From Actinomycetota bacterium (lineage in GTDB: Bacteria > Actinomycetota > Coriobacteriia > Anaerosomatales > JAUXNU01): a stretch of DNA of 48,860 bases. The position numbers were made by a program, and so were the translations under genes. The notes beneath the pieces were generated by a model. That model made no database searches and had not been told where the DNA came from. It worked only from the letters and a program-made list of their open reading frames with translations. The first letter of the stretch is position 1. The number at the start of each line of letters is the position of its first letter. Below are positions 6,664 through 8,136 of this stretch, in pieces. Location of the stretch: positions 1 to 48,860 of the forward strand of contig JAUXNU010000105.1 in the NCBI GenBank assembly GCA_030682655.1. The letters run 5' to 3'.

Positions 6664-8136
6664 CTAGACCTGGTCAGAGTTCCTTGGGACGTGGGTCCCG
6701 ATCGCCGCAGGTGCGATCGGGCAGGCGCCGGCGCACAGGTTGCATGCGATGCAGAGCTCGGGGTCGACAACCGGCACGCGCAGTAGAGATTCCCGGCGTG
6801 GCTGCCCCTTCATCGGGTCCTCGACGGAGACCAGCGCGCCACGTATCGGGCATGCGGCCAAGCACTGGAGACAGCGCTTGCCCCTCCCCCAGGCCCTACA
6901 GTTCGCACGATCGACATGCGCGATCACGTAGAGCCCGAGCAGCAGCTCCTCTTCGAAGGTGTGCGTGTGGATCGCGTCGGTCGGGCAGACGGTGGCGCAC
7001 AGGTTGCAGCTCAGCGAGCAGTGCGCAGGGCGCTGGTCGAGCATGGGAGTCCATGGCCCCGCCACCGACGCGAACGAGAGGCTCGGGCGTAGCGCGCCGG
7101 TCGGGCATGCGGCGTAGCAGGCGCCGCATCGCACACACAGCTCCGCAAGTCGCCGCTCGTCGGTGGCCGGAGGCCGCACGATGCCGTCCTCGGATCCGAA
7201 CGCCGGCGCCACCGCCGTTGCCAGCAGCGAGACGCCCGTCGCCCCGGCGACCAGTAGGGCGTCGCGACGATCGAGTTCGAGCGCCGACGATGCCGGGCGG
7301 ATCGGACTGGTTCGGAACACGGCGGCCCCGGTCGGGCAGACGTCCACGCACTGCATGCAGACCGTGCACTCCGTGGCGGTGACGGCGTACTCCTCGGCGC
7401 GATTGACGGCGCCCGTCGGACACGCCACGGCACACCTGGCGCACGAGGTGCACGTCCCGGCATCGACGACGCGGCGCAGTCCGGGGAGCCTGGTGATCAG
7501 CGCCAGCAGCCCTCCCAACGGACACAGCATCCGGCACCATGTCCGGCGTCCAAGTGTGTTGAGTCCCAGCACCAGCGCAAGCGGGACGACGGACAGGACC
7601 GCAACGAGCATGCCGGCCGAGCCCGCGCGCACGGTCGCAATGCGCGTAGCGCGCCCAACCGCGTCACTGCCAAGGAGCGGCATCACGAACTCCTGCAGTG
7701 GCCGGGTCGCGATGGTCACCGGGTCGAGGATCATCGGTGAGAGAGTCCCGAACGCGGCAGCGCCGAGAACGACAGCGAGTGTGATGTAGGAGCCGAGTCT
7801 CCACCTGTCCGTGAGCCAACCCGGCTGCTTGCGCGAGGCGGGCACCGTGTCGAGGAGTGTTCCGACCGGGCATATCCAGCCGCACCATGCGCGGCCGAAG
7901 GCCACCGTCAGCACGACGGTCCCTATCGCCGCCGCCCCGAACGCAAGCAGGGTGCGCGACGCCAACATCGCGGCGAGTCCGATCAGTGGATCGAAACGCG
8001 GGAACACCGTCTCGGGAAGCCAGGGAATCATGCGCGAGAACCCGGCGACCGTGAGCACGACGAACACGACGAGCGCCGTCGCTTGAACAACGCGGCGCGC
8101 GCCAACCCATCGCGGTTTCTTGACCGGGTTGTTCAT
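6664..8136 (-). CDS. NapH-NapG-type fused membrane ferredoxin with six 4Fe-4S sites
   Basis: A 490-residue fusion. Residues 15-200 hold membrane helices with the NapH-type motifs CGWICP (C85, C89) and CRMLCP (C201, C205). Two CxxCxxCxxxCP clusters follow (C229-C239 and C257-C267), as in NapH. Residues 285-315 look like a buried twin-arginine segment (R290-R291, then a hydrophobic stretch), as at the start of NapG/MauM. Four more clusters follow at C334-C344, C373-C384, C413-C429 and C462-C472. The protein probably takes electrons from quinol or ferredoxin across the membrane. No periplasmic reductase is adjacent, so its partner is unknown. ATG 8136 follows GGAGT; the longer frame upstream is not supported. 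The NapH and NapG halves are normally separate genes. Confidence 0.8.
   Translation of the reverse strand: MNNPVKKPRWVGARRVVQATALVVFVVLTVAGFSRMIPWLPETVFPRFDPLIGLAAMLASRTLLAFGAAAIGTVVLTVAFGRAWCGWICPVGTLLDTVPASRKQPGWLTDRWRLGSYITLAVVLGAAAFGTLSPMILDPVTIATRPLQEFVMPLLGSDAVGRATRIATVRAGSAGMLVAVLSVVPLALVLGLNTLGRRTWCRMLCPLGGLLALITRLPGLRRVVDAGTCTSCARCAVACPTGAVNRAEEYAVTATECTVCMQCVDVCPTGAAVFRTSPIRPASSALELDRRDALLVAGATGVSLLATAVAPAFGSEDGIVRPPATDERRLAELCVRCGACYAACPTGALRPSLSFASVAGPWTPMLDQRPAHCSLSCNLCATVCPTDAIHTHTFEEELLLGLYVIAHVDRANCRAWGRGKRCLQCLAACPIRGALVSVEDPMKGQPRRESLLRVPVVDPELCIACNLCAGACPIAPAAIGTHVPRNSDQV

Follow-up and report, generated by a model that had tools for sequence, protein, structure and literature searches.

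We propose, with a probability of about 85%, that the window, the whole 48,860-nucleotide stretch of DNA analysed here, encodes a dual Sec/Tat polyferredoxin of the NapH-NapG fusion kind, which would pass electrons from menaquinol to an acceptor outside the membrane. The fusion itself, the conservation of its cysteines and twin arginine (RR), its helix pattern, the presence of TatC and the absence of NapA come from this analysis; RR- and Tat-dependent translocation past the fifth helix comes from a family member studied elsewhere. What we infer is the topology of the window protein, its direction of electron flow and its acceptor.

The reading frame opens at position 8136 with an ATG that closely follows a GGAG-like ribosome site, and runs through 490 codons without an internal stop to the stop codon at 6664-6666. 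The initial annotation had described one continuous protein, and the frame is indeed open throughout. Profile searches matched NCBIfam NapH models to the first half (best E 2e-22) and NapG/MauM models to the second (best E 5e-19), in tandem on one chain, as expected of the end-to-end fusion that had been suggested. All of these matches had E-values of 1e-16 or better and scored below the curated cut-offs; the NapH equivalog NF007013 reached 79.4 of the 234 bits required, and the NapG equivalog NF007012 68.4 of 269. The protein contains exactly 28 cysteines, arranged as two CX3CP motifs (Cys 85/89 and 201/205) and two four-Cys [4Fe-4S] motifs (229-239 and 257-267) in the NapH half, followed by four such motifs (334-344, 373-384, 413-429 and 462-472) in the NapG half, so that the earlier count of two plus four clusters stands. 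We aligned the window protein with 34 sequences from separate genome records: 27 of the 28 Cys columns are invariant across all 35 sequences, and the 26 full-length sequences keep every cysteine with the sole exception of Cys260. Two respiratory iron-sulfur proteins, one NapH-like and one NapG-like, are genuinely fused in this single gene.

Table 1. Features of the fusion gene, with window positions, and loci of another branch of the family. Insertion energies are approximate, and only their sign and rank are usable.
Feature	Position	Strand	Basis
NapH-NapG fusion polyferredoxin, whole gene	6664..8136	(-)	open frame; NapH and NapG models in tandem; 34 homologues of the same architecture
NapH-like half, residues 6-275 (four helices, two CX3CP, two 4-Cys motifs)	7312..8121	(-)	NF007013 / TIGR02163; Cys conservation
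NapG-like half, residues 297-485 (four [4Fe-4S] motifs)	6682..7248	(-)	NF007012 / TIGR00397; all 16 Cys invariant
Predicted helix 1, residues 17-37	8026..8088	(-)	insertion-energy scan, approx. -0.18; helix 10-33 in model
Predicted helix 2, residues 61-80	7897..7956	(-)	insertion-energy scan; helix 65-80 in model
Predicted helix 3, residues 112-132	7741..7803	(-)	insertion-energy scan; helix 110-128 in model
Predicted helix 4, residues 173-192	7561..7620	(-)	insertion-energy scan; helix 172-195 in model
Twin arginine, residues 290-291 (LDRRDALL)	7264..7269	(-)	R290 35/35, R291 34/35
Weakly hydrophobic helix 5, residues 293-313, proposed Tat-inserted anchor	7198..7260	(-)	insertion energy approx. 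+1.34; model helix 290-312, low confidence
DUF362 gene upstream of the fusion: L011, L012, L013, L015, L017, L033-L041, L044, L102			

A draft genome in 221 contigs could in principle contain a false assembly join, or two neighbouring genes could have been joined. Because the same fusion is carried by 34 other, separate genome records (28-56% identity where aligned), we ruled out an assembly artefact, and give this explanation next to no probability. Those 34 homologues, all of the same architecture, answer the call for a search of other genomes: 25 further full-length fusions came from related genomes and a large genome collection, and nine more from a phylum-wide search. The large collection placed fusions in records labelled Chloroflexi, Anaerolineae, Dehalococcoidia, Actinomycetes, Coprothermobacterota and Kiritimatiellae. 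Within the phylum sample the distribution is patchy, since only 12 of 396 genomes match at E <= 1e-20. Two separate translation products from the gene appear unlikely from its sequence, because no suitably placed in-frame start codon preceded by a ribosome site was found between residue 268 and the RR; an ATG with a Shine-Dalgarno-like stretch is present at residue 261, where initiation would split one of the cluster motifs.

The fusion architecture is not new: the family was described by Tooke et al. in 2017 (eLife, PMC5449189) as polytopic polyferredoxins that hold three clusters in the cytoplasm and four outside, with an RR before helix 5 and homologues in several phyla, Chloroflexi among those listed. 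The polyferredoxin of the delta proteobacterium MLMS-1 (PFD, Q1NSB0) is explicitly called a NapH-NapG fusion there, and reporters fused to its five helices were exported only when the RR and Tat were both in place (PMC5449189). Whether clusters are counted as three plus four, as in that paper, or two plus four, as here, depends on the CX3CP pair, whose role is unsettled (PMC5928378). Judged against the published description, the window protein resembles MLMS-1 PFD in being a NapH-NapG fusion with five predicted helices, an RR directly before helix 5 and a NapG-type four-cluster C-terminal domain. It differs in coming from another lineage, in a helix 5 that starts about 45 residues earlier and in what looks like a less positive charge after that helix. 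The halves also match the NCBIfam models, Cys motifs and motif order of the NapH and NapG quinol dehydrogenase of E. coli and Wolinella; there, however, the two proteins have separate genes, whereas the window protein is one gene scoring below the equivalog cut-offs, in a genome without NapA or a nap operon. The same subfamily models (TIGR02163, TIGR00397) cover MauN and MauM, which are separate proteins, unlike the joined halves here. The window protein would extend the known dual Sec/Tat family to a further actinobacterial lineage that lacks Nap.

A twin arginine with a hydrophobic stretch had been noted at residues 285-315, and the RR and a hydrophobic segment of about residues 293-313 do lie there. 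Insertion energies, which are approximate, are used here for sign and rank only: helices 1-4 are predicted to be favourable and helix 5 unfavourable (+1.34, against -0.18 for helix 1). PMC5449189 likewise reports a positive predicted insertion energy for the fifth helix and a negative one for the first in MLMS-1 PFD, and that of helix 5 is positive in nearly all of our homologues. Structure modelling returned a helix at residues 290-312, in line with the proposed segment, but at low confidence there. The mean pLDDT of the whole prediction was 66 and the fold search was uninformative, with no PDB match at E<=0.001; searching solved structures by sequence gave ferredoxin-type matches only.

The initial annotation had taken the Tat segment for a relic, a reading that we reject. 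R290 is present in every aligned sequence, and R291 is replaced once, by lysine; together with an RPP motif, the pair forms the most conserved columns of a variable, 66-column linker. The relic reading is unsupported because few positions in this otherwise variable linker are as well conserved as the RR, because the helix after it is only marginally hydrophobic, and because the same architecture in MLMS-1 needs RR and Tat by experiment (PMC5449189). As far as the alignment tells, the internal signal is strongly constrained, and it most likely still functions in export, taking the last four clusters across the membrane. TatC is encoded in the genome, as is a Tat-signalled formate dehydrogenase-like protein bearing SRRDFLK.

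Were the segment a relic, helix 5 would be inserted by Sec or serve as a mere linker, leaving the last four clusters independent of Tat and possibly cytoplasmic. The local motif, DRRDALL, differs from SRRxFLK at several positions and lacks the consensus Phe, but close relatives lack this residue too and retain the RR, where a relic would be expected to drift. The charge after helix 5 is also not clearly positive in the window copy (3 K/R and 5 D/E in the following 20 residues), a position at which PMC5449189 stresses a positive tail, and the helix is so poorly hydrophobic that non-insertion is conceivable; the related MLMS-1 construct is nevertheless Tat-dependent, and we consider Tat-independence improbable. 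A cut in the single chain after helix 5 would instead release a free NapG from a membrane-bound NapH, and the small-residue stretch APAFGS, which follows this helix in the window copy, resembles a signal-peptidase site. This stretch is not conserved among the homologues, however, and the fifth helix is treated as a membrane anchor in PMC5449189, which makes cleavage, if anything, less probable still.

With the RR segment as a working signal, Sec would insert the four N-terminal helices with the N-terminus inside, so that both CX3CP motifs come to lie on the cytoplasmic side together with the two NapH-type clusters. Tat, to which the loop would then present the twin arginine, would insert the weak fifth helix and move the folded, cluster-loaded NapG-like domain outside. 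By analogy with the described family, the NapH clusters would be oriented towards the cytoplasm and the final four towards the exterior. Menaquinol oxidation with outward electron delivery would follow naturally: the NapH part probably oxidises menaquinol, and the four outer clusters would then relay electrons to an external acceptor other than NapA. A single UbiA-family prenyltransferase in the genome is compatible with a quinone pool.

The reported lack of a neighbouring NapA holds both nearby and elsewhere in this 97.4%-complete genome, in which none of the three PF00384 proteins reaches the NapA cut-off; they are a formate dehydrogenase, the Tat-signalled formate dehydrogenase-like protein and a NuoG-like protein. 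Searches of the genome likewise gave no match to the NrfA or cytochrome bd (bd I) families. The Tat-signalled molybdopterin protein (L092:688-4428 (+), contig C54) contains one in-frame TGA, which probably encodes selenocysteine.

The fusion is flanked on one side by ATC_hydrolase-family and GDPD genes, and on the other by unannotated genes and an RND transporter. The ATC_hydrolase family gene (PF14196; 6041-6571 (-)) lies 93 bp downstream on the same strand, and none was seen next to the sister loci that we examined. Within the window's branch no conserved operon partner emerged, the neighbours of five sister loci failing to repeat.

Another branch, mostly Chloroflexota with some actinobacterial relatives, has a DUF362 gene (PF04015) directly upstream on the same strand in 16 fusions (Table 1), in most of them either overlapping the fusion or lying a few bases from it, by open-frame coordinates. 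A Tat-like RR motif is recognisable in 9 of these 16 DUF362 genes, clearly so in several (e.g. SRRSFLR). No upstream DUF362 gene was found in the window's branch, the L009/L010 pair or the L094-L101 group, the flanking DNA being short at some loci, and the two DUF362 proteins of the window genome are unlinked to the fusion and lack an N-terminal Tat motif. Our literature search on DUF362, by itself and combined with NapH or twin-arginine, brought up no account of the DUF362-fusion pairing. Tentatively, as a possibility rather than a probability, fusion polyferredoxins may act on their own as quinol dehydrogenases that serve acceptors other than nitrate reductase, with a Tat-exported DUF362 protein as the direct partner in one branch and a DUF362 partner lost from, or never present in, that of the window. 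The DUF362 gene upstream in the other branch offers a testable clue to what such orphan quinol dehydrogenases supply with electrons.
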